A stretch of 64,000 bases of DNA from Desulfovibrio aminophilus DSM 12254 (GTDB lineage: Bacteria; Desulfobacterota; Desulfovibrionia; Desulfovibrionales; Desulfovibrionaceae), in the NCBI RefSeq assembly GCF_000422565.1, contig NZ_AUMA01000003.1, positions 186,001 to 250,000 of the forward strand, written 5' to 3'. Shown one piece after another: positions 35,958-45,793 of the stretch. Positions within the stretch are counted from its first letter, which is position 1; the number at the start of each line of letters is the position of its first letter. The notes below the pieces were generated by a model. The model ran no database searches. It was not told where the DNA came from and saw only the letters and a program-made list of their open reading frames with translations. A program made the translations under genes and the position numbers.

Positions 35958-36247
35958 CACTTCTCCTCCATGACCATGGCGATGGCCTCTTTGGGGCACT
36001 CGTTGGCGCAGATGCCGCAGCCCTTGCAGTAGTCATAGTCCGGCCGGAAGAAGCCGTCGTCGCGCTCGCTGATGCAGAACTCCGGACAGTAGAGTTCGCA
36101 CATGCCGCACTTGATGCACTTCTCCTCGTCCAGACGCGGGATGAGGGTGCGCCAGTCGCCGGTCTTCAGCCCGGCGGCGCTGCCCGGCTCCAGAACGGCC
36201 GCTCCGAGAGCCAGCTCCTGCCAGGCGCACAGGGACTTCTTGGCCAT
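35957..36247 (-). CDS. porD: Pyruvate:ferredoxin oxidoreductase delta (2x[4Fe-4S]) subunit
   Basis: 96-residue ferredoxin-like delta subunit. It has two cluster motifs: CIKCGMCELYCPEFC (first) and CKGCGICANECP (second), both C-x2-C-x2-C-x3-C. The N-terminal ~40 residues form the extension expected in PorD, which docks on the other subunits. First gene of porD-porA-porB. An AGGAGGC site lies before the ATG. The 125-base gap upstream separates it from the amidohydrolase gene, and no clear promoter or terminator stands out there. Confidence 0.93.
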   Translation of the reverse strand: MAKKSLCAWQELALGAAVLEPGSAAGLKTGDWRTLIPRLDEEKCIKCGMCELYCPEFCISERDDGFFRPDYDYCKGCGICANECPKEAIAMVMEEK

Positions 36248-36372
36248 GCCATGCCTCCTTGGTGGCGTGGTTGCATGAAAGAAAATGTCGCGCAGATGTA
36301 GCCCGGCGTTCGCGGCGATGCCGCAAAAATCCGGTCAGTGGACGAATGGGCCGGTGAACGGCGAACGGAGGA

Positions 36373-37158
36373 TCAGGGCAGGAGGGCGGCTCCGTTCAGG
36401 AGCAGCGAGTCCAGGGCCTCGTCGGTGAGCGCTAGGCGGCGTTGGAGCATGTGCATTTCGGCCCCGGGGTCGAAGAGTGGATAGTCCGAGCCGAAGAGGA
36501 TGCGTTCGCGGGGGTGGCCGTTCCAGATGGCCCGGAGCGTCTCATCCGGGATGAAGGCCATGGTGCTGGAGGTGTCCATGAAGACGTCCCGACCCACGAG
36601 GTGTTCCAGGGCCCACTTCCAGTGCAGATAGCCGCCCATGTGAGCGGCGATGACCCTGCGTCCGGGGAAGGCTCGCAGCAGGGCCGCCAGCTTCATGGGG
36701 CAGGAAGGGTTCTTTTCCGGAGGCAGGTCGTCGCCCACGTGAATCATGAGCGTGAAGCGCTTCGGAACCATTTCCATGAGCTGATAGAAGGCCGGGGAGT
36801 CCAGAAAGAATCCTTGAAAGTCGGGGTGAAACTTGAGACCCGTGATGCCCGCCTTGGTCAGGCGTTCGATCTCGCGCTCGTTGTCCTGGTAGTCCGGGTG
36901 CAGGGAGCCGAAGGCCACCACTTCGGGATGCTTGCGGGTCAGCTCGATGGCCCAGTTGTTGGCCGGGACCACTTGCGAGGGGTCCGTGGCGGCCGTGTGC
37001 AGCATGACCTTTTCCAGGTCGGCGTGGGCCGCGCGGGCCAGAAGGTCGTCCACGGTGCCGTCGCCCACTGGCGTGATGCCATAGTGGTCCGAGAGCTGGT
37101 CCAGAACTTTCTGGGCGATCTTGGGGTGGAAGGCGTGGGTGTGAACGTCGATGCGCAT
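36373..37158 (-). CDS. Amidohydrolase-family metal-dependent hydrolase
   Basis: 261 residues of the amidohydrolase-2 group (ACMSD-like decarboxylases and TIM-barrel hydrolases). The N-terminal DVHTHAFHP gives the HxH metal pair. LKFHPDFQGF, MIHVGD and VIAAHMGG supply further ligands, and LFGSDYPLFDP near residue 225 holds the catalytic Asp. Such proteins are common beside unrelated operons; substrate unknown. It is divergent from tatA, with 184 bases between them. Confidence 0.85.
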   Translation of the reverse strand: MRIDVHTHAFHPKIAQKVLDQLSDHYGITPVGDGTVDDLLARAAHADLEKVMLHTAATDPSQVVPANNWAIELTRKHPEVVAFGSLHPDYQDNEREIERLTKAGITGLKFHPDFQGFFLDSPAFYQLMEMVPKRFTLMIHVGDDLPPEKNPSCPMKLAALLRAFPGRRVIAAHMGGYLHWKWALEHLVGRDVFMDTSSTMAFIPDETLRAIWNGHPRERILFGSDYPLFDPGAEMHMLQRRLALTDEALDSLLLNGAALLP

Positions 37159-37342
37159 ATGCGTATTCCTTGGAACTCATTGACGGGGACATGGCTAACC
37201 GAGCTGGGCGGAGGTCGCAAGACGTGAGCGCCCACACTAAAAATCGGCATGAACAAATCGTAATGTTGTGGAGAGGTTCTTTTCCCATTGAATAGGGTAT
37301 GCTGTTCAGTTGAAAGAGCTTGCCCAGCGGGCGGAGGTCGCC

Positions 37343-37531
37343 ATGTTCGGAGTTGGTTCCACGGAATTGCTGGTCATTCTGGTCATCGCCGTTTTGGTCT
37401 TTGGCTCCAACAAGCTGCCTGAGATCGGCGCGAGCATGGGCAAGGCCATCCGTGCCTTCCGTACGGCAGGAGAAGAGACTGAAAAAATTGAAACAAAGCC
37501 GTCACCCCAGGATGAGAAGAAAGCGTCCTGA
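37343..37531 (+). CDS. tatA: Twin-arginine translocase subunit TatA
   Basis: 62 residues. A short N-terminal membrane helix (LLVILVIAVLVFG) is followed by the FGSNKLPEIG hinge and an amphipathic helix (SMGKAIRAFRTAGEE), and then a charged tail. TatA oligomers form the pore for folded-protein export, including iron-sulfur and molybdenum enzymes important in sulfate reducers. The ATG at 37343 is preceded by GGAGG; the longer frame starting at 37310 lacks the conserved start. No tatC in this window. Confidence 0.93.
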   Translation: MFGVGSTELLVILVIAVLVFGSNKLPEIGASMGKAIRAFRTAGEETEKIETKPSPQDEKKAS

Positions 37532-37554
37532 CATGGCGGCGTGAGGGAATGACA

Positions 37555-37725
37555 ATGCGATATGGGTGCCTGCTTCAGGCCGTGATCATGATGTTGCTTA
37601 CGCTCGCGGCCATGGGCCTCTACGAATATGGATTCATCGTCCCGGCGGGAATTCTCGGCGGGATCGCCGCGGCCGTGATGGCCTGGGGAATCTGGGCCGT
37701 GAACCGCAGGAGCGGGAAAGATTAG
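37555..37725 (+). CDS. Small 56-residue membrane protein behind tatA
   Basis: An intact frame from ATG (37555) to TAG (37725) encodes about 56 residues: a basic start (MRYGC), two hydrophobic segments (about residues 8-27 and 28-49) separated by a short EYGF turn, and a basic tail (NRRSGKD). It lies 23 bases after tatA, behind a weak GAGGGA site. Composition and codon use look normal. Two-helix hairpin topology fits a small membrane protein. No family recognised, and it is easy to overlook. It overlaps the converging thioesterase by four bases. Confidence 0.65.
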   Translation: MRYGCLLQAVIMMLLTLAAMGLYEYGFIVPAGILGGIAAAVMAWGIWAVNRRSGKD

Positions 37726-38141
37726 CTGAACAGCCCCTTGAGCCAGTCCGGCACACGCACCGGGCGACCTTCCGCGTTGACGCAGGCGTGTTCGGTCATG
37801 CCCGTGGCGATGATTCCCGAGCGATCCGCCGTGTAGACCTCGTAGGCGAAAAGCATCGAAGCCCGCCGCCATTCGCTCACTCCGCAACGGACCCATAGTT
37901 CGTCGTCGAAACGGGCCGGAGTCCGGTAGCGGCAGGAGGCTTCGCGTACAGGCAGATAGATGCCGCGTTCCTCCACCTCGGCGTAGCTCATGCCCCGGTC
38001 GCGGATGAACAGGCTGCGCGAACGTTCGAAGAAGTGAAAATATTCCGCGTAGTAGACCACGCCCATGGCGTCGGTCTCGCCGTAGGACACACGATGCGCC
38101 AGCCAGGAGTCGGCGCTTGGGAAGCCGCTGTTTTTGTTCAT
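37722..38141 (-). CDS. YbgC-like hot-dog acyl-CoA thioesterase
   Basis: 139 residues of the 4-hydroxybenzoyl-CoA thioesterase/YbgC family. The signature ETDAMGVVYYAEYFHFFE contains the catalytic Asp near residue 24. The hot-dog helix and the strands after it (SCRYRTPARFDDELWV) follow normally. The start overlaps the ApgM-like stop by four bases (ATGA), making it the last gene of the aminotransferase-hom-ApgM unit. Its job there is unclear. Confidence 0.88.
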   Translation of the reverse strand: MNKNSGFPSADSWLAHRVSYGETDAMGVVYYAEYFHFFERSRSLFIRDRGMSYAEVEERGIYLPVREASCRYRTPARFDDELWVRCGVSEWRRASMLFAYEVYTADRSGIIATGMTEHACVNAEGRPVRVPDWLKGLFS

Positions 38142-39325
38142 CGTTTTATTCGTTCCAGGCACCAGTTCAACAGCGTGTGCCCCTGCTCCAGAACGAGTCC
38201 GGCTGCGTCGGCGGTGTTTTCGTCGAAGGCTGCCGCGCTCTGGCCCGTGATGCCCGGGGCCAGGAAAAGGAAGGGCACCGGGTCGGAGGTATGGGTCCGT
38301 TCCTGGATCGGCGTGTAGTGGTCGCAGGCGATGAGCCAGGCCGCGTCGTCGCCCAGGGCCTGGCGCAGCGGGCCCACGATGCGTGCGTCGAAACGGGCGA
38401 TGGCCTCGGTCTTGTCGGCGGCGTTGCCCGCGTGGCCGCACTCGTCCGGCCCCTCCAGATGCACGAAGACGAAATCCCCGGTCTCCAGAAACTTGAGCGC
38501 CGCGTCCACCTTGCCCTGATAGTTCGTGTCCAGCAGACCTGTGGCCCCGGGAACTTCGATGACCTCCATGCCGGCGGCACGGCCCAGGCCCCGGACCAGG
38601 TCCACCGCCGAGATGACCGCGCCCGAGAGCCCGAAGGCCTGGCGGAAGCCGGGCAGATGCAGCGGTCGTCCCTGGCCCCAGGGCCAGATGGAGTTGGCCT
38701 TGGTTGTGTTGTTCTTGTGGGCCAGCCGTTCGGCGGCTCCATGCAGGAGATCCCAGAGGCGCGGGGAATGTGAGAAGGTCATCAGGTCCGGCTTGACCGG
38801 CTTGTCCGTGATGTCGTGAGGCGGCCGGATGGCGAGCGTGGCCTCGTCCTCCAAGGCCCCGCCTTTCTGCACGAGCAGATGGCGGTACTGTACACCCGGG
38901 TGGAAGGTGAAGGTCTCGTCGCCCAGGTGGTCCTGGAGGTCGCGCAGGAGCGGCAGCGCGGCCTCGCTGGTGATGTGTCCGGCGGAATAGTCGCGCATCG
39001 TGCCGGAAAGCCCCAGGTCCGTGACCGTGACCAGGTTGCAGCGCCAGACCAGATCCTCGGGGTCCAGCTCCAATCCCTGGGCCGCGGCCTCGATGGGACC
39101 ACGTCCGGTGTGGTGCTGCGCCGGGTCGAAGCCCAGCAAGGCCATGTTGGCCACGTCCGATCCCGGGGCCATGCCTTCGGGAACGGTGCGGCAGCGGCCC
39201 ATAAGGGCCTGGGCTGCCATCGCGTCCATGTTCGGGGTCTGCGCGGCCTGGAGCGGGGTCTTGCCGCCCAAGGACTCCAGGGGCCAGTCGCCCATGCCGT
39301 CGGCGATGAGGAAAAGGAGTTTCAT
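38138..39325 (-). CDS. ApgM-family protein; candidate homoserine kinase
   Basis: 395-residue member of the alkaline-phosphatase superfamily, related to archaeal-type 2,3-bisphosphoglycerate-independent phosphoglycerate mutase. The N-terminal metal motif is LFLIADGMGDWP, followed by PEGMAPGSDVANMALLGFDP with the nucleophile Ser. HLEGPDECGHAGN and ACDHYTPIQERTHTSDPVPF give the other metal ligands. A subfamily found in deltaproteobacteria and Bacteroidetes beside threonine genes has been proposed to be a homoserine kinase. This gene is 13 bases after homoserine dehydrogenase, matching that pattern. Phosphoglycerate mutase remains possible. Confidence 0.82.
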   Translation of the reverse strand: MKLLFLIADGMGDWPLESLGGKTPLQAAQTPNMDAMAAQALMGRCRTVPEGMAPGSDVANMALLGFDPAQHHTGRGPIEAAAQGLELDPEDLVWRCNLVTVTDLGLSGTMRDYSAGHITSEAALPLLRDLQDHLGDETFTFHPGVQYRHLLVQKGGALEDEATLAIRPPHDITDKPVKPDLMTFSHSPRLWDLLHGAAERLAHKNNTTKANSIWPWGQGRPLHLPGFRQAFGLSGAVISAVDLVRGLGRAAGMEVIEVPGATGLLDTNYQGKVDAALKFLETGDFVFVHLEGPDECGHAGNAADKTEAIARFDARIVGPLRQALGDDAAWLIACDHYTPIQERTHTSDPVPFLFLAPGITGQSAAAFDENTADAAGLVLEQGHTLLNWCLERIKR

Positions 39326-39338
39326 GCGCTGCGCCAGG

Positions 39339-40625
39339 TTAAAGGATTCGGAAGAGAACAGTCGGCTTGCGGGTGAAGCTCATGGCGTCGATCTCCGCGG
39401 CCACGGCGTCGGCGGCCTTGGCCTGGGCCGCGTGGGTCAGAAAGACGATGGGCACGTCCGTGGCCGACTCGTCGCCCTTCTGCACGGCCTGGGCGATGGA
39501 GATGCCGTGGTTGGCCATGGTCTGGGCGATTGCGGCCATGACGCCCGGCCGGTCGGCCACGGTGAAGCGGAAGTAGTAGCAGGACACGGCCAGTTCGGGC
39601 GGCAGGATGTCCGCAGGAGCCACCGGAGCTGAGCCGAAGCCGGTGTTGTCGGGCCGGAATCCCGGGCGGCAGAGGCTCATGAGGTCGGCCAGCACGGCGC
39701 TTCCCGTGGGCAGAGCCCCGGCTCCCTGTCCGTGGAGCATGATCGGGCCCACGGCGTTGCCCTCCAGGCGCACGGCGTTGTAGTTGCCGCCCACCCGGGC
39801 CAGGAGGAAGGTATGTTTGACCAAGGCGGGGAACACGCCCGCCTCCAGACGACCGTCCACGTCGCGCACCTGGGCCAGCAGCTTGATGCGGTAGCCGAAT
39901 TCGCGGGCGATCTCGATGTCCTGCTGGGTCACGCTGGTGATTCCGCGCACGGGCAGGGTTTTCAGCGGATAGTCGCGGCCGTAGGCAAGCCTGATGAGGA
40001 CCACGAGCTTGTGGGCCGTGTCCATTCCCTCGATGTCGAAGGTCGGGTCGGCCTCGGCGTACCCCAGGGCCTGGGCCTGGGTCAGGGCGGTTTCGAACTC
40101 CAGGCCGTTGGTGGTCATCTCCGAGAGGATGTAGTTGGCCGTGCCGTTGAGGATGCCCACCAGTTTTTCGATGCGGTTGCCGGATAGCGAGTCCTTGAGT
40201 GTCTGGACGATGGGGATTCCCCCGGCCACGCTGGCCTCGTAGAGCAGGCCGACGCCTTTCTCCTCGGCCAGGGCGAAAAGCTCCGGGCCGTGTTCAGCCA
40301 GCAGGTGCTTGTTGGCCGTGACCACGTGTTTGCCCGCCCGCAGGGAGCGTTCGATGAGCGTCTTGGCCGCGCCCACGCCGCCCATGAGTTCGACCACGAT
40401 GGCAATCTCCGGGTCGTCCGTGAGCGCGGCCGGATCGTCGGTGAGGGCGACGCCCGGTCCGGGCAGGAAGCTCCGCCGCTTGGTCAGGTCGCGCACGAGC
40501 ACGGTCTTGATGGCGATGCGCCGTCCGATGCGGCGTTCGATCCAGTCCCCGTTCTCTTCCAGGACCCGGGCCAGGCCCGAGCCCACCGTGCCGAAACCGG
40601 CCAGGCCGATGCGTACCGCTTCCAT
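39339..40625 (-). CDS. hom: Homoserine dehydrogenase
   Basis: 428 residues. It reduces aspartate semialdehyde to homoserine. The N-terminal NAD(P) motif is IGLAGFGTVGSGLARVL, the substrate/catalytic region includes EASVAGGIPI and GTANYILSEM, and FDIEGMDTAHKLVVL is the family signature. A C-terminal ACT domain (about 340-428) suggests amino-acid feedback control. ATG at 40625 is chosen because AGAGG fits; a GTG at 40631 is possible. Located between the aminotransferase and the ApgM-like gene, each within about 15 bases. Confidence 0.95.
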   Translation of the reverse strand: MEAVRIGLAGFGTVGSGLARVLEENGDWIERRIGRRIAIKTVLVRDLTKRRSFLPGPGVALTDDPAALTDDPEIAIVVELMGGVGAAKTLIERSLRAGKHVVTANKHLLAEHGPELFALAEEKGVGLLYEASVAGGIPIVQTLKDSLSGNRIEKLVGILNGTANYILSEMTTNGLEFETALTQAQALGYAEADPTFDIEGMDTAHKLVVLIRLAYGRDYPLKTLPVRGITSVTQQDIEIAREFGYRIKLLAQVRDVDGRLEAGVFPALVKHTFLLARVGGNYNAVRLEGNAVGPIMLHGQGAGALPTGSAVLADLMSLCRPGFRPDNTGFGSAPVAPADILPPELAVSCYYFRFTVADRPGVMAAIAQTMANHGISIAQAVQKGDESATDVPIVFLTHAAQAKAADAVAAEIDAMSFTRKPTVLFRIL

Positions 40626-40633
40626 GAGCACCT

Positions 40634-41812
40634 CTATTTGCCGAAGAACTTCTTGATGCCGCGCACTGCCTGATTGATGCGCTGGCGGTTCTCCACCAGG
40701 GCGAAGCGCACGTGCCCGTCGCCGTACTCGCCGAAGCCCAGGCCCGGGGACACGGCCACGCTGGCTTCCTTGAGCAGCAGCTTGGAGAACTCCACGCTGC
40801 CGAGCTTCTTGAACTCCTCGGGGATGGGCGCCCAGACGAACATGGTGGCCTTGGGCTTGGGCACATCCCAGCCCGCGCGGGCCAGACCCTCGCAGAGGGC
40901 GTCGCGGCGGTCCTGATGCTCATCCATGATTTCGCGCACGCACTCCTGCGGTCCGTTCAGGGCATGGCAGGCCGCGATCTGGATCGGCTGGAAGATGCCG
41001 TAGTCCAGGTAACTCTTGATCCGGGTCAGGGCCTGGACCATGTCGCGGTTGCCGCAGCAGAAGCCCACGCGCCAGCCCGCCATTGAGTAGCTCTTGGTCA
41101 GGGAGAAGAACTCCACGCCGACGTCCTTGGCGCCCTCGGCCTGCAGGAAGCTGGGGGCCTTGTAGCCATCGAAGGTGAAGTCGCAGTAAGCAAAGTCGTG
41201 GATCACCATCAGCCCGTTTTCCTTGGCGAAATCAACAATGCGCTGGAAGAAGGCCAAGTCGCAGACCTCGGTGGTCGGGTTGTGCGGGAAATTGATGACC
41301 AGAAGCTTGGGCCGGGGCCAGCAATGGCGCACGGCCAGCTTCATGTCCTCAAGGAAATCTCGGCCGGGGCCGATGGGGATGCGCCGCACGTCCGCTCCGG
41401 CGATGATCGCGGCGTAGGGATGGATGGGGTAGGCCGGGTCCGGGGTCAGGACCACGTCGCCGGGAGCCAGCATGACCAGGGCCAGGTGGGCCAGTCCTTC
41501 CTTGGCGCCCATGGTCACGACCACTTCCTGATTGTGGTCCAGTTCCACGTTGAAACGGTTGCGGTACCAGTTCGCCATGGCCATGCGCAGGCCGTTGATG
41601 CCCTTGGAGGCGCTGTAGCGATGGTTGATGGGCTTCTGCGCCGCCTCCACGAGCTTGTCCACCACATGCTTGGGTGAAGGCAGGTCGGGGTTGCCCATGC
41701 CCAGGTCCACGATGTCCGCGCCATCGTGGCGGAGCTTCATTTTGAGTTCGTTGACCGTGGCGAAGACGTAGGGCGGAAGGCGGTGAACCCTGGCGAACTG
41801 ATGCTGTTGCAT
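40634..41812 (-). CDS. Class I PLP aminotransferase (AlaC-like)
   Basis: 392 residues, fold-type I. The PLP-binding Lys lies in [15 protein letters not shown] near residue 237, and the N-terminal [18 protein letters not shown] plus [11 protein letters not shown] are also typical. The sequence is of the AlaC/LL-DAP-aminotransferase-like class that makes alanine, or it may transaminate aspartate or other acids in this operon. First gene of the minus-strand unit with hom, and it has its own promoter upstream. The stop is eight bases from hom. Confidence 0.87.
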
Positions 41813-41861
41813 GGCCGTGACTCCTCGCGCTCGTGGCGGATATGTTGAGATGGAGAGGTAT

Positions 41862-41891
41862 CTATTAGCCGCGCCGCCCGTGCCCTGTCAA
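41862..41891 (-). promoter_or_regulatory. Promoter of the aminotransferase-hom operon
   Basis: On the minus strand a perfect -35 TTGACA (41886-41891) is 18 bases from TAATAG (41862-41867). The predicted start is near 41855, giving a leader of about 43 bases. It lies in the divergent region shared with the cytosine deaminase gene. Confidence 0.55.
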
Positions 41892-41938
41892 AGCCAATTG
41901 TGCCGCCGGAAACGTGTGTTTTTTTCACGAACCGCGCA

Positions 41939-41967
41939 TTGAAGGGCCTTCCGGGCCGTGTTATGAG
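41939..41967 (+). promoter_or_regulatory. Candidate promoter of the cytosine deaminase gene
   Basis: TTGAAG (41939-41944) and TATGAG (41962-41967), 17 bases apart, each match four of six sigma-70 positions. The leader would be about 34 bases. It faces away from the aminotransferase promoter; only about 50 bases separate their -35 boxes, so one regulator could act on both. Confidence 0.4.
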
Positions 41968-42007
41968 GGGCAAACAGGGTTTCGCCAGGCGAGACCGAGG
42001 AGCGTTC

Positions 42008-42460
42008 ATGCCCAACAATCCGGATTACGCGGCCATGCTTCAGGAAGCATTGGTGGAGGCTCGGCTCGGGCTGGCCGAGGGCGGCATCCCCATCGGCGCG
42101 GCCCTTTTCGACGCCTCCGGCCGGCTGGTGGGCCGAGGCCGGAACCGCCGCGTCCAGGACGACGATCCGTCCATGCATGCCGAAACCAACGCCTTCCGCA
42201 ACGCGGGGCGCCAGAAGTCCTATCGGGACATGGTCATGGTCACCACCCTGGCCCCGTGCTGGTACTGCTGCGGGCTGGTCAAGCAGTTCAAGATCGGCAC
42301 CGTGGTCCTGGGCGAGTCCAGAACCTTCAAGGGCGGGATAGACTGGCTGCGGCGTCAGGGAGTGAAGGTCGTGGACATGAAGAACGCGGAATGCGAGGAG
42401 TTGCTCGGCCGGTTCATCAAGGCTCATCCCGAGATATGGAACGAGGACATCGGGGAATAG
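42008..42460 (+). CDS. Cytosine-deaminase-like zinc deaminase (yeast Fcy1 type)
   Basis: 150 residues of the CDA superfamily. Zinc motifs are MHAETNAFRN (HAE with the catalytic Glu) and LAPCWYCCG (PCxxC). The closeness to yeast cytosine deaminase is striking, including the opening ARLGLAEGGIPIGAALF and the ending PEIWNEDIGE, where the yeast enzyme ends PQDWFEDIGE. Bacterial CodA is an unrelated amidohydrolase, so this is the less usual type. Likely converts cytosine to uracil. The ATG has GAGGAG upstream. Confidence 0.83.
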   Translation: MPNNPDYAAMLQEALVEARLGLAEGGIPIGAALFDASGRLVGRGRNRRVQDDDPSMHAETNAFRNAGRQKSYRDMVMVTTLAPCWYCCGLVKQFKIGTVVLGESRTFKGGIDWLRRQGVKVVDMKNAECEELLGRFIKAHPEIWNEDIGE

Positions 42461-42488
42461 AAACGGGCGCTCCGTGCGGCGCGTCTTT

Positions 42489-42875
42489 TCAGATCTTTTC
42501 GGAAAGAGAGCCGGGCAGGGCTCCGGGGCAGGCCTCGGTGCGGACCATGCGCGAGAGGGTCATGCAGTCCAGTTCCAGAGGCTCGTCGAAGACCACGCCG
42601 CAACGGTCGCCGCGTGTCCAGCGGATTTCCCCGCGCATGCTGGAGAGGAAGCCGATCAGACCGTTGAAGATGCAGCCCCGGAAGAAGACGGAATCGCCGA
42701 GGGCCGGCGTCCCGCCGTTCATCAGCAGACAGGCTCCCGCCGGGGAGATGTCCTCGATGAGCGCGTCGCAATCGCGTCCCCCCGCAGTGATGGAAAGGTC
42801 GCACTGACGCAGGACGTCCAGCACGTCGGCCAGGGAGACGCGCGAGTGGTTGCGGCGGTTCAGACACAAATCCAT
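42489..42875 (-). CDS. PilZ-domain c-di-GMP-binding protein
   Basis: 128 residues, nearly all one PilZ domain. The RxxxR motif appears in NRRNHSRVSL and the D/NxSxxG motif in IEDISPAGACL about 35 residues later; both together are required for c-di-GMP binding. It resembles stand-alone PilZ receptor proteins controlling motility, adhesion or exopolysaccharide. A GGDEF/EAL protein is encoded at 55104. Its N terminus faces the ilvE control region, so the two promoters share 185 bases. Confidence 0.86.
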   Translation of the reverse strand: MDLCLNRRNHSRVSLADVLDVLRQCDLSITAGGRDCDALIEDISPAGACLLMNGGTPALGDSVFFRGCIFNGLIGFLSSMRGEIRWTRGDRCGVVFDEPLELDCMTLSRMVRTEACPGALPGSLSEKI

Positions 42876-42926
42876 GACAGCCTCGCGTATACAGGGAAAG
42901 GCGTCTCATACCCGGGCCTTGCGCTG

Positions 42927-42980
42927 ATGGCAAGTGGTTTTGCGAGTCTTCGTCTTGACCTCGAAAGGCGAATTCTTTAG
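42927..42980 (+). other. Possible leader peptide before ilvE
   Basis: A 17-codon frame [20 protein letters not shown] 42927 to TAG 42980, holds four Leu and one Ile codon, clustered toward its end. No good ribosome site is visible. It precedes two hairpins and the ilvE start. Given only as a candidate attenuation leader; such short Leu-containing frames can arise by chance. Confidence 0.3.
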
Positions 42981-42992
42981 CTTCCAACACTT

Positions 42993-43038
42993 GCCCGGAG
43001 CGTGTCCGGGCGACGGCGTCGCGGACGGCGCAATTTTT
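42993..43038 (+). promoter_or_regulatory. Candidate attenuator of ilvE
   Basis: A 7-base perfect stem (GCCCGGA 42993-42999, TCCGGGC 43005-43011) is followed by a second, weaker stem (GCGTC 43016-43020 with GGCGC 43027-43031) and AATTTTT. An alternative pairing GTCCG (43004-43008) with CGGAC (43022-43026) excludes both. This is the layout of a transcription attenuator; high GC makes chance pairing likely too. Confidence 0.35.
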
Positions 43039-43060
43039 CCTCACAAGGAGTGAGCGGGCA

Positions 43061-43984
43061 ATGGTTCAGAAATCCGAGAAGATCTGGTTCGACGGCAAGC
43101 TGGTTCCCTGGGGCGAGGCCAACGTCCATGTGCTGACCCATACCCTGCATTACGGAGCGGGCGTATTCGAAGGCATTCGGGCCTACGAATGCGCCGACGG
43201 CACATCGGCCGTCTTTCGCCTGCAGGAGCACATCGTCCGCTTGCATGATTCGGCCCATATCCTGAACATGACCATCCCCTTCGATGTGGATGAGCTTGTG
43301 GACGCCTGCGTCGAGACGCTCAAGGCCAACAAGCTCAAGGCGGGCTATCTCCGCCCCCTGGTCTTCATCGGCGACGGCGTCATGGGTGTGCATCCCGGCA
43401 AGAACCCCATCCGGGTGGCCATCGCCACTTGGCCCTGGGGCGCGTACCTGGGCGAGGAGGCCCTGGACAAGGGCATCCGCGTGAAGACCTCCACCTTCGC
43501 CCGGCATCACGTCAACGTCATGATGACCAAGGCCAAGGTCTGCGGCAACTATGTGAACTCCGTGCTGGCCAAGACCGAGGCCGTGGCCGACGGCTACGAC
43601 GAAGCCCTCATGCTCGACACCATGGGCTTCGTCTCCGAGGCCAGCGGCGAGAACATTTTCATCGTCCGCGATGATCAGATCAAGACCACGCCGCTCACCT
43701 CGGTGCTCCCGGGCATCACCCGCGACAGCATCATCACCCTGGCCCGTGAGCTGGGCTACGAAGTGGTCGAGCAGATATTCACCCGCGACGAGCTGTACAT
43801 CGCCGATGAGGCCTTTTTCAGCGGCACGGCCGCCGAGATCACTCCCATCCGCGAAGTGGACCGCCGGGTCATCGGCGAGGGGCACGCCGGACCGGTGGCC
43901 AAGCTCCTCCAGCGCGAGTTCTTCAAGGTCGTCAAGGGCGAGAACCAGGACTACGCCCACTGGCTGCATCCGTATACGGTCTAG
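43061..43984 (+). CDS. ilvE: Branched-chain amino acid aminotransferase
   Basis: 307 residues of fold-type IV PLP enzymes. It interconverts Leu, Ile and Val with their 2-oxo acids. The N-terminal [18 protein letters not shown] and the [15 protein letters not shown] motif are typical. The PLP Lys is in [10 protein letters not shown], and [14 protein letters not shown] plus the Thr-Ser-Val segment [14 protein letters not shown] close the site. AAGGAG precedes the ATG. A possible attenuator and leader peptide lie upstream, and a terminator lies downstream. Confidence 0.95.
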
Positions 43985-44002
43985 TTGTTTTCGGGCGAGA
44001 AC

Positions 44003-44030
44003 GGGGGGGCCTCGGCCCCCCTTCCTTTTT
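44003..44030 (+). terminator. Terminator after ilvE
   Basis: A G-rich arm (44003-44009) pairs with the C-rich arm around 44014-44021, and is followed by TTCCTTTTT ending at 44030. It separates ilvE from dnaX. Confidence 0.8.
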
Positions 44031-44086
44031 CATGAGGGGCCGACGGACCTTTTCAAGCGGGCCCCGAGCGTGTACACCCAGAATCC

Positions 44087-45793
44087 ATGAGCGCAGCCAA
44101 CCTCACCGCCAAATACCGGCCCCGGACCTTCGCCGAGGTGGCCGGACAGGACGCGGTCAAGGCCATCCTTTCCCGGGCCGCCGAAACCGGCCGGGTGGCC
44201 CCCGCCTATCTCTTCAGCGGCACGCGCGGGGTGGGGAAGACCACCATCGCGCGCATCTTCGCCAAGGCCCTCAACTGCGAGAAGGCCCCCACCGCCGAAC
44301 CCTGCAACGAGTGCGCGCACTGCCGCCAGATCACCGCGGGCGTGGCTCCGGACGTCATCGAGATCGACGGCGCGTCCAACCGCGGCATCGACGACGCCCG
44401 CCGCCTCAAGGAGGACATCGGCTACGCGCCAATCGAATGCCGCTACAAGATATTCATCATCGACGAAGCGCACATGCTCACCCGGGAGGCCTTCAACGCT
44501 CTGCTGAAGACTCTGGAGGAGCCTCCGGCCCGGGTGACCTTCATCCTGGCCACCACCGAGGCGCACAAGTTCCCGGCCACCATCCTCTCACGCTGTCAGC
44601 ATTACGCCTTCAAGATGCTGCCCCAGGCCGAGATCGCCGCCCATCTGGAGAAGATTCTCCGCCTGGAGAACGTGGACTTCGAGACCGGAGCGGTGCAGAT
44701 CATCGCCCGCCGGGCCTCGGGCAGCGTGCGCGACGGCATGTCCTTGTTGGGCCAGGCCCTGGCCTTCGGCGGTACGCGGCTGGCGGAGTCCGAGGTGCGC
44801 GGCTTCCTCGGGCTGGCCGGGCAGGATGTGTTCTTCGCCCTCATGGAGGTGCTTCAGGCCCGCGACCTGCCGGGCGTGGTTCTGCTTCTGCGCCGCATCC
44901 TGGACCAGGGCCTGGATTTGGGGTTCTTCCTGCGTGAGCTGTCCGGCTGTTGGCGGAACATGTTCCTCCTGCGCCAGGCGGGCGACGCGGCCCTGTCCGC
45001 TCTGGACCTTTCGGCCGAGGAGGCCCGCGCCTGGGGCGAGTGGGCCGTACGTTTTCAGCCCGGGCACATCCACGCCTGCTGGCAGATGACCCTGGAGAGC
45101 CAGCGCCGCATCCTCACCAGCATGGAGCCCGCGCAGGCCTTGGAGCTGCTGCTGCTCAACCTTGCCAGCCTGCCGGACTTGGTGGATATGGAGACCTTGG
45201 CCCCGGCCGCGTCCTCCGCGCCCCGAACGCCCTCGGCAGCCACTCCGCCCCGGCCCGCGCCGCGTCCGGCCCCCGTGCCGTCCCCGACTTCTCCGGCGGC
45301 GTCGCGCCCGGCTCCGGCCCCCTCGTTCCGCGCCGAGTCGCGCGCCGAGGCCGAGCCCGAGACCGAGCCCGGGGACGACGCTGAACCGGACCCCGCCGCG
45401 CCGGAAGTCACCGGGCCGGACCCCGCCGCCCAACCGGACTGGGGGGGCTTCGTGGAGTTCCTGGTGCGCAAGAACGGCCAGGCCGAGTCCAAGATTCCCG
45501 GGTTGCGCCAGCTTTCCGGCGCGCTGGAGGGGCGCACCCTGGTGGTGCATTGCCCCACGTCCTATCTGGCCAACCGCCTGAGCGCTCCAGAGTGTCTGAA
45601 GGCCCTGACGCGTTTCACGCGGGAGTATTTCGGCCCGGACATGAGCGTCCGCCTGGACCGCGCGCCCGAGGCGCAGCAGCGCCGCAGCCTGGATGAACTC
45701 AGGACCGAGGCCATGGAGGACCAGGGGGTGCGCCGGGTTCTGGAGTCCTTTCAGGCCAAGGTGTTGAACGTGGAGCCCCGTCGCCCGGGCTGA
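44087..45793 (+). CDS. dnaX: DNA polymerase III subunit gamma/tau
   Basis: Clamp-loader ATPase, 568 residues. Walker A is GTRGVGKTT (residues 45-53). The zinc module uses CEKAPTAEPC, CNEC and the His/Cys that follow; Walker B DEAHMLTREAF and sensor SRCQHYAF are present. The C-terminal region (about 375-450) is a Pro/Ala/Glu-rich linker followed by a domain that probably binds the polymerase. I saw no slippery A-run for a programmed gamma frameshift. It leads the dnaX-ybaB-recR group, a conserved order. Confidence 0.93.
   Translation: MSAANLTAKYRPRTFAEVAGQDAVKAILSRAAETGRVAPAYLFSGTRGVGKTTIARIFAKALNCEKAPTAEPCNECAHCRQITAGVAPDVIEIDGASNRGIDDARRLKEDIGYAPIECRYKIFIIDEAHMLTREAFNALLKTLEEPPARVTFILATTEAHKFPATILSRCQHYAFKMLPQAEIAAHLEKILRLENVDFETGAVQIIARRASGSVRDGMSLLGQALAFGGTRLAESEVRGFLGLAGQDVFFALMEVLQARDLPGVVLLLRRILDQGLDLGFFLRELSGCWRNMFLLRQAGDAALSALDLSAEEARAWGEWAVRFQPGHIHACWQMTLESQRRILTSMEPAQALELLLLNLASLPDLVDMETLAPAASSAPRTPSAATPPRPAPRPAPVPSPTSPAASRPAPAPSFRAESRAEAEPETEPGDDAEPDPAAPEVTGPDPAAQPDWGGFVEFLVRKNGQAESKIPGLRQLSGALEGRTLVVHCPTSYLANRLSAPECLKALTRFTREYFGPDMSVRLDRAPEAQQRRSLDELRTEAMEDQGVRRVLESFQAKVLNVEPRRPG

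Follow-up and report, generated by a model that had tools for sequence, protein, structure and literature searches.

A TIGR02535 protein beside homoserine dehydrogenase in Desulfovibrio aminophilus as a candidate second homoserine phosphotransferase

We examined a 64,000-nucleotide stretch of the Desulfovibrio aminophilus DSM 12254 genome (G000:C1:186001-250000, hereafter the window; the assembly is 3.42 Mb in 25 contigs and 99.98% complete), in which an ApgM-like protein is encoded directly after the homoserine dehydrogenase gene hom. The initial annotation described an operon of aminotransferase, hom, ApgM-like and thioesterase genes lying within about 15 bases of one another, and proposed that the ApgM-like protein may be the homoserine kinase. 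Gene calls and family matches confirm the operon (Table 1). The four genes follow one another on the minus strand, 5′ to 3′, in the order just given and span exactly 37722-41812; the measured spacing is 2 bp between aminotransferase and Hom and 13 bp between Hom and the ApgM-like protein, whose stop codon overlaps the thioesterase start by 4 bp (ATGA). The kinase proposal survives in altered form: the ApgM-like protein is a candidate for a second homoserine phosphotransferase, in a genome that encodes another predicted enzyme for the step.

Gene order at the operon and its conservation

Hom scores 513.1 bits against NF004976 (cut-off 205); its start codon is a GTG at 40631, with an ATG in frame at 40625. 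The NCBIfam models nearest to the aminotransferase are AlaA and LL-diaminopimelate aminotransferase, every score shown falling below the model cut-off. We gauged conservation of the arrangement among 150 genomes of the order Desulfovibrionales, counting as full-type ApgM any protein with at least 399 bits to TIGR02535; the curated cut-off of 446.3 is passed in 44 of the 150. From the 95 genomes with the full type, 20 loci were hand-picked for genus spread. Hom lies inside the fetched stretch at 16/20 of these loci and immediately upstream of ApgM (same strand, <500 bp) at 14/20; the thioesterase is downstream at 17/20, and the aminotransferase is inside the stretch at 14/20. The four-gene arrangement is thus conserved more than chance would allow. 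No Rfam family matched over 36000-44100 at gathering thresholds, no riboswitch was found at the operon within that range, and promoter and terminator scans came out near the shuffled expectation. An amidohydrolase-like frame with HAFHPKIA in its start region follows the ApgM-thioesterase pair both in the window (36373-37158, minus strand) and at locus L082 (8952-9752, plus strand).

Table 1. Positions of the operon genes, of selected codons of the ApgM-like protein (window coordinates) and of two related genes elsewhere in the genome
Feature	Position	Strand	Assignment or remark
Pyridoxal-phosphate aminotransferase, class I/II, 392 aa	40634..41812	-	PF00155
Hom, homoserine dehydrogenase with ACT domain, 430 aa	39339..40631	-	PF00742, PF03447, ACT; NF004976
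ApgM-like protein, 395 aa	38138..39325	-	PF10143 and PF01676; TIGR02535; also above the cut-offs of PRK04200 and TIGR00306
YbgC/FadM-type acyl-CoA thioesterase, 139 aa	37722..38141	-	PF13279, TIGR00051
Ser56 codon, expected phosphoryl-accepting nucleophile	39158..39160	-	Invariant in 21 full-type ApgM, 2 Bacteroides proteins, 3kd8 and 2zkt
His117 codon	38975..38977	-	Arg in both archaeal mutases
Trp214-Pro215-Trp216 codons	38678..38686	-	The two Trp are Leu and Arg in both archaeal mutases
Glu291 codon, three residues before expected metal ligand Asp294	38453..38455	-	Lys in both archaeal mutases
Shikimate-kinase-like protein	G000:C5:79646-80128	-	NF040667 hom_kin_desulfo
CobD and cobyric-acid-synthase-like fusion, 884 aa	G000:C23, L216:661-3315	-	CobD by score, second half named from sequence

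Family and pocket residues of the ApgM-like protein

The genome encodes a single PF10143 protein, the ApgM-like one. It scores 464.5 bits against TIGR02535 ('proposed homoserine kinase'; curated cut-off 446.3) which, with its place 13 bp after hom, bears out its assignment to the ApgM subfamily that occurs beside threonine genes and has been proposed as a homoserine kinase. That idea is already in print. The role was proposed by the TIGRFam curators and is discussed in GapMind, where 15 of 29 organisms lacking ThrB carry a TIGR02535 protein (PMC7311316), and a gut-microbiome reconstruction names the type ThrB2 (PMC9026213). In Bacteroides thetaiotaomicron, mutants in the member BT2402 require threonine for growth (PMC7311316), and BT2402, with conserved zinc sites, has been termed 'the alternative homoserine kinase' (PMC9765024). 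In searches of open-licence literature we recognised no demonstrated homoserine kinase activity of a TIGR02535 member, and PMC545781 does not mention homoserine.

To place the protein within its family we aligned 21 full-type ApgM sequences of the order with two Bacteroidales homologues, whose genes sit between thrA and thrC on plasmid-labelled records, and with the archaeal mutase chains 3kd8 and 2zkt. The ApgM-like protein is 44% and 42% identical to the two Bacteroidales homologues. It shares Asp9, Ser56, Asp294, His298, Asp335, His336 and His345 with both archaeal chains; by reference to cofactor-independent phosphoglycerate mutase (iPGM) enzymes we take Ser56 to be the nucleophile and the other six to be metal ligands. 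The full-type and Bacteroidales sequences have 71 invariant columns; both archaeal chains match at 42 of these, a single chain at 14 and neither at 15, so that at 15 positions ApgM and the Bacteroidales proteins agree and both archaeal mutases differ (with two proteins on each side of the comparison). As a control, four columns invariant in full-type ApgM match both archaeal mutases and differ in both Bacteroidales proteins. The archaeal basic residues R117, R216 and K291, which may bind substrate, are replaced by His, Trp and Glu in the ApgM-like protein. Because they lie near catalytic residues in the sequence, the 15 signature residues may shape the substrate pocket. In a phylogenetic tree, the ApgM proteins of the order, diverged copies included, form one group (support 0.758) that the Bacteroidales proteins join next (0.996); the tree was built with a 2zkt chain one letter short, and the column counts use the corrected chain.

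Other genomes of the order encode a distant second ApgM relative (L096-L108) with the motifs GLGDRS, PSENAHFAMFG and HTKAPD. This type shows 25-26% identity (two measured) and has 0-1 of the 15 pocket residues (three examined), and it was set aside. One member exceeds TIGR00306 (338.3 bits, cut-off 320) and passes no specific model.

A second enzyme for the step and the distribution of both families

The initial annotation noted no conventional thrB in the window, and for the GHMP type this holds across the genome: the sole PF00288 match is an IspE-like gene beside prs, and a conventional ThrB is therefore rejected (the choline-kinase-fold type, TIGR00938/PF01636, was not searched). What did not hold is that the ApgM-like protein fills an otherwise empty step after Hom. 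The genome encodes two SKI-family proteins. AroL on contig C10 (184.1 bits, cut-off 161) is its separate shikimate kinase; the divergent protein on contig C5 scores 71.4 bits against the AroL model and 225 bits against NF040667 hom_kin_desulfo (cut-off 197). NF040667, judging from the model name, would derive from DvMF_0971, annotated as a shikimate kinase, which has been shown to act as homoserine kinase in D. vulgaris Miyazaki F and complements an E. coli thrB mutant; in the Miyazaki F strain, mutants in three genes are rescued by threonine (PMC5764234). A shikimate-kinase-type homoserine kinase has also been read in a termite symbiont (PMC7608387). The expectation for TIGR02535, that it replaces a missing homoserine kinase, thus does not apply here. 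The refutation named in the initial annotation, a normal ThrB elsewhere, finds no GHMP-type match, but in spirit the non-orthologous C5 kinase supplies it. Two threonine-synthase-like genes are also present (L209:1501-2523 and L210:1501-2484, both minus strand): one narrowly exceeds TIGR00260 (175 bits, cut-off 167.1), and the other scores 580.3 bits against PRK08197 (cut-off 303) and has a RidA-like frame upstream.

The two enzyme families show no mutual exclusion, since nearly all genomes with full-type ApgM carry both. Counting the shikimate-kinase type as present at 190 bits or more to NF040667 (the cut-off itself is passed in 137/150 genomes), we find it in 142/150 genomes and full-type ApgM in 95/150. 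Both occur in 93 of the 95 full-type genomes, and in 84/84 of those at least 90% complete; the two with full ApgM alone are G047 (85% complete) and G051 (43% complete), the latter counted as full-type despite two stops in frame. The shikimate-kinase type occurs without full ApgM in 49/150 genomes (44/131 at ≥90% completeness), and six of the 150 (G103, G149, G013, G060, G066 and G069) have neither. Some apparent losses are contig ends, hom lying 126 (G037) and 460 (G066) bases from a contig start. In G013 (L254) the thioesterase directly follows Hom, with ApgM missing between them and a diverged ApgM ∼8 kb away; a strong NF040667 protein was not found in this genome.

Absence of full-type ApgM follows phylogeny. 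It is found in 0/42 genomes of genera g3, g6, g9, g11, g14, g16 and g21, which form one clade in a tree of the shikimate-kinase-type enzyme, g6 members taking two places within it. One g6 protein shows 87% identity to its Halodesulfovibrio counterpart. A second hand-picked set of 20 further loci supplied diverged ApgM copies from g6 and g9, where such a copy (34-40% identity, tblastn) follows hom at 6/6 fetched loci; these copies retain 34-35 of 41 mutase-common residues and 5-10 of the 15 pocket residues. In g3, aminotransferase and hom are adjacent without ApgM at 3/4 fetched loci, and the fourth (L248) has hom without the aminotransferase. The kinase itself differs inside and outside the clade in a loop residue: Lys88 is present in 32/32 clade sequences vs 0/25 outside, and Asp93 in 29/32 vs 1/25, in a sample that includes the 30 best-scoring shikimate-kinase-type loci (L039-L068), which lean to one clade. 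Other features are common to clade and outside sequences alike; the shikimate-binding Arg is absent in 56/57 (Leu, Met or Ile instead; L117 has Arg), the C5 protein among those lacking it, and the TGGS motif serine is present in 57/57. In g9 and g14, and at 0/20 full-type stretches, aroL lies beside the aminotransferase and hom. This order matches DvMF_1410 and DvMF_1412, so D. vulgaris probably belongs to the ApgM-poor clade; the 80 loci of the contig scan include no D. vulgaris record.

Role in threonine synthesis, alternatives and known systems

We favour, at a little under even chances, the reading that the ApgM-like protein is a second homoserine phosphotransferase in threonine synthesis, beside the shikimate-kinase-type enzyme. 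The argument comes from the TIGR02535 score above its cut-off, the adjoining Hom at 14/20 loci, the Bacteroides-like pocket, the threonine requirement of BT2402 mutants, the coexistence of the two enzymes and the clade pattern. Under this proposal Hom would make homoserine, Ser56 of the ApgM-like protein would take a phosphoryl group from a donor and pass it to the homoserine hydroxyl, and the C5 enzyme would carry out the same phosphorylation with ATP. On our best reading, an ApgM-type homoserine phosphotransferase was ancestral in the order and became redundant in one clade, where the shikimate-kinase type would take over and ApgM decay or be lost; we infer this hand-over on one branch, as we do the substrate, the donor and the activity of the two enzymes in D. 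aminophilus. A wider picture, which we regard as doubtful, is that most of the order has two unrelated homoserine-phosphorylating enzymes, the ApgM type in the hom operon and the shikimate-kinase type, with the hand-over still in progress in one clade and visible there as a substrate-loop change in the kinase, a degenerating ApgM in the operon slot of two genera and its loss in the others.

Several observations weigh against a homoserine phosphotransferase. BT2402, the one TIGR02535 member tested by complementation, gave no complementation of E. coli thrB (personal communication in PMC7311316). The ApgM-like protein also exceeds the mutase model PRK04200 ('cofactor-independent phosphoglycerate mutase'; 467.1 bits, cut-off 426). 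Hom is distant from ApgM at 4/20 loci (L079, L081, L082 and L086), so the two genes are not always linked. With a second kinase in the cell, ApgM would be redundant at this step, and such genes are as a rule lost; that 95/150 genomes keep it hints at a separate task. Finally, the clade pattern amounts to one evolutionary event, weak as statistics, and could be coincidence. Of the proposal in the initial annotation, then, the family, the neighbourhood and the absence of a GHMP ThrB stand in its favour, and the claim that the protein fills an empty step is not supported in that form.

One alternative lies in cobamide synthesis: the C5 protein would be the only homoserine kinase, and the ApgM-like protein would phosphorylate L-threonine, an isomer of homoserine, to feed CobD. 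We consider this unlikely, although it has several points in its favour. An L-threonine kinase role has been proposed for the TIGR02535 protein Dehre_1608 (cbiU) (PMC4285132); the genome encodes a CobD (315.9 bits, above the cut-off) within a fusion protein; and it has no recognisable PduX-type kinase, its only GHMP kinase being IspE. CobD occurs in 76/84 full-ApgM genomes vs 13/47 without full ApgM (≥90% complete; odds ratio 24.8, 131 genomes). However, CobD is missing from eight ApgM genomes and full ApgM from 13 CobD genomes, with both directions seen within genera; since the two are lost separately there, the association is largely a clade effect, and the link to CobD, strong as tabulated, is weakened. 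The ApgM gene lies beside hom rather than corrinoid genes, and exactly one GHMP kinase occurs in 39/49 genomes, with or without ApgM, so some CobD genomes without ApgM must need another threonine kinase. In many genomes of the order, CobD is surrounded by long frames of about this size.

Slightly less likely again is that homoserine phosphorylation here falls mainly to the ApgM-like protein, the C5 protein having another main substrate and its family serving as homoserine kinase only in the D. vulgaris clade. The threonine-operon pocket is kept wherever the other enzyme lacks Lys88; where Lys88 is fixed, ApgM is lost or its pocket eroded to the residue counts given above, and gene order places D. 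vulgaris in the Lys88 clade. Against this, the C5 protein scores above the cut-off of the curated homoserine-kinase model and, like the enzymes of the clade, has lost the shikimate Arg and has the TGGS serine. Position 88 is not known as a shikimate contact, which also weighs against this alternative. A phosphoglycerate mutase, with which the retained metal and nucleophile residues and the PRK04200 score would agree, is very improbable: PRK04200 also matches the Bacteroides threonine-operon proteins (583-584 bits) and so does not discriminate, the three archaeal basic positions are changed, and the genome-wide search that the initial annotation had suggested found GpmI (662.8 bits, cut-off 330.65) and GpmA (405.2 bits, cut-off 305), so that a third mutase is not needed; together with the pocket residues, these make the mutase-only activity named there as a refutation unlikely.

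Since this genome has another enzyme family for the step, a TIGR02535 gene beside hom does not by itself identify 'the missing kinase'. Genomes of the order with both enzymes, with one and with a decaying one can be compared as they occur in nature; with these comparisons and the 15-residue signature, which separates threonine-operon proteins from archaeal mutases, the question is directly testable. If the wider picture of two enzymes and a hand-over is correct, the ApgM-type protein would be the first bacterial homoserine phosphotransferase of the alkaline phosphatase superfamily with an internal evolutionary control.

Four known systems bear comparison with the one described here. Dehre_1608 of Dehalobacter restrictus is likened by description, as a reported TIGR02535 protein (PMC4285132), and differs in lying in a corrinoid operon. 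The archaeal ApgM enzymes (3kd8, 2zkt) share the fold family, the catalytic residues and 31-33% identity, and differ at the 15 signature columns, R117, R216 and K291 among them. NF040667, with DvMF_0971 as its probable source, is the family to which the C5 protein is assigned by score, and that protein is the other candidate for homoserine phosphorylation; its fold is unrelated to that of ApgM, and it has no Lys88, the loop residue of the clade where D. vulgaris is placed. BT2402/ThrB2 has in common the NCBI family, threonine-gene neighbours and the pocket residues shared with the two Bacteroidales homologues. The Bacteroides gene, however, lies between thrA and thrC in organisms described as having no other known homoserine kinase (PMC7311316), whereas here hom and a thioesterase gene flank it and the genome has a second kinase family.

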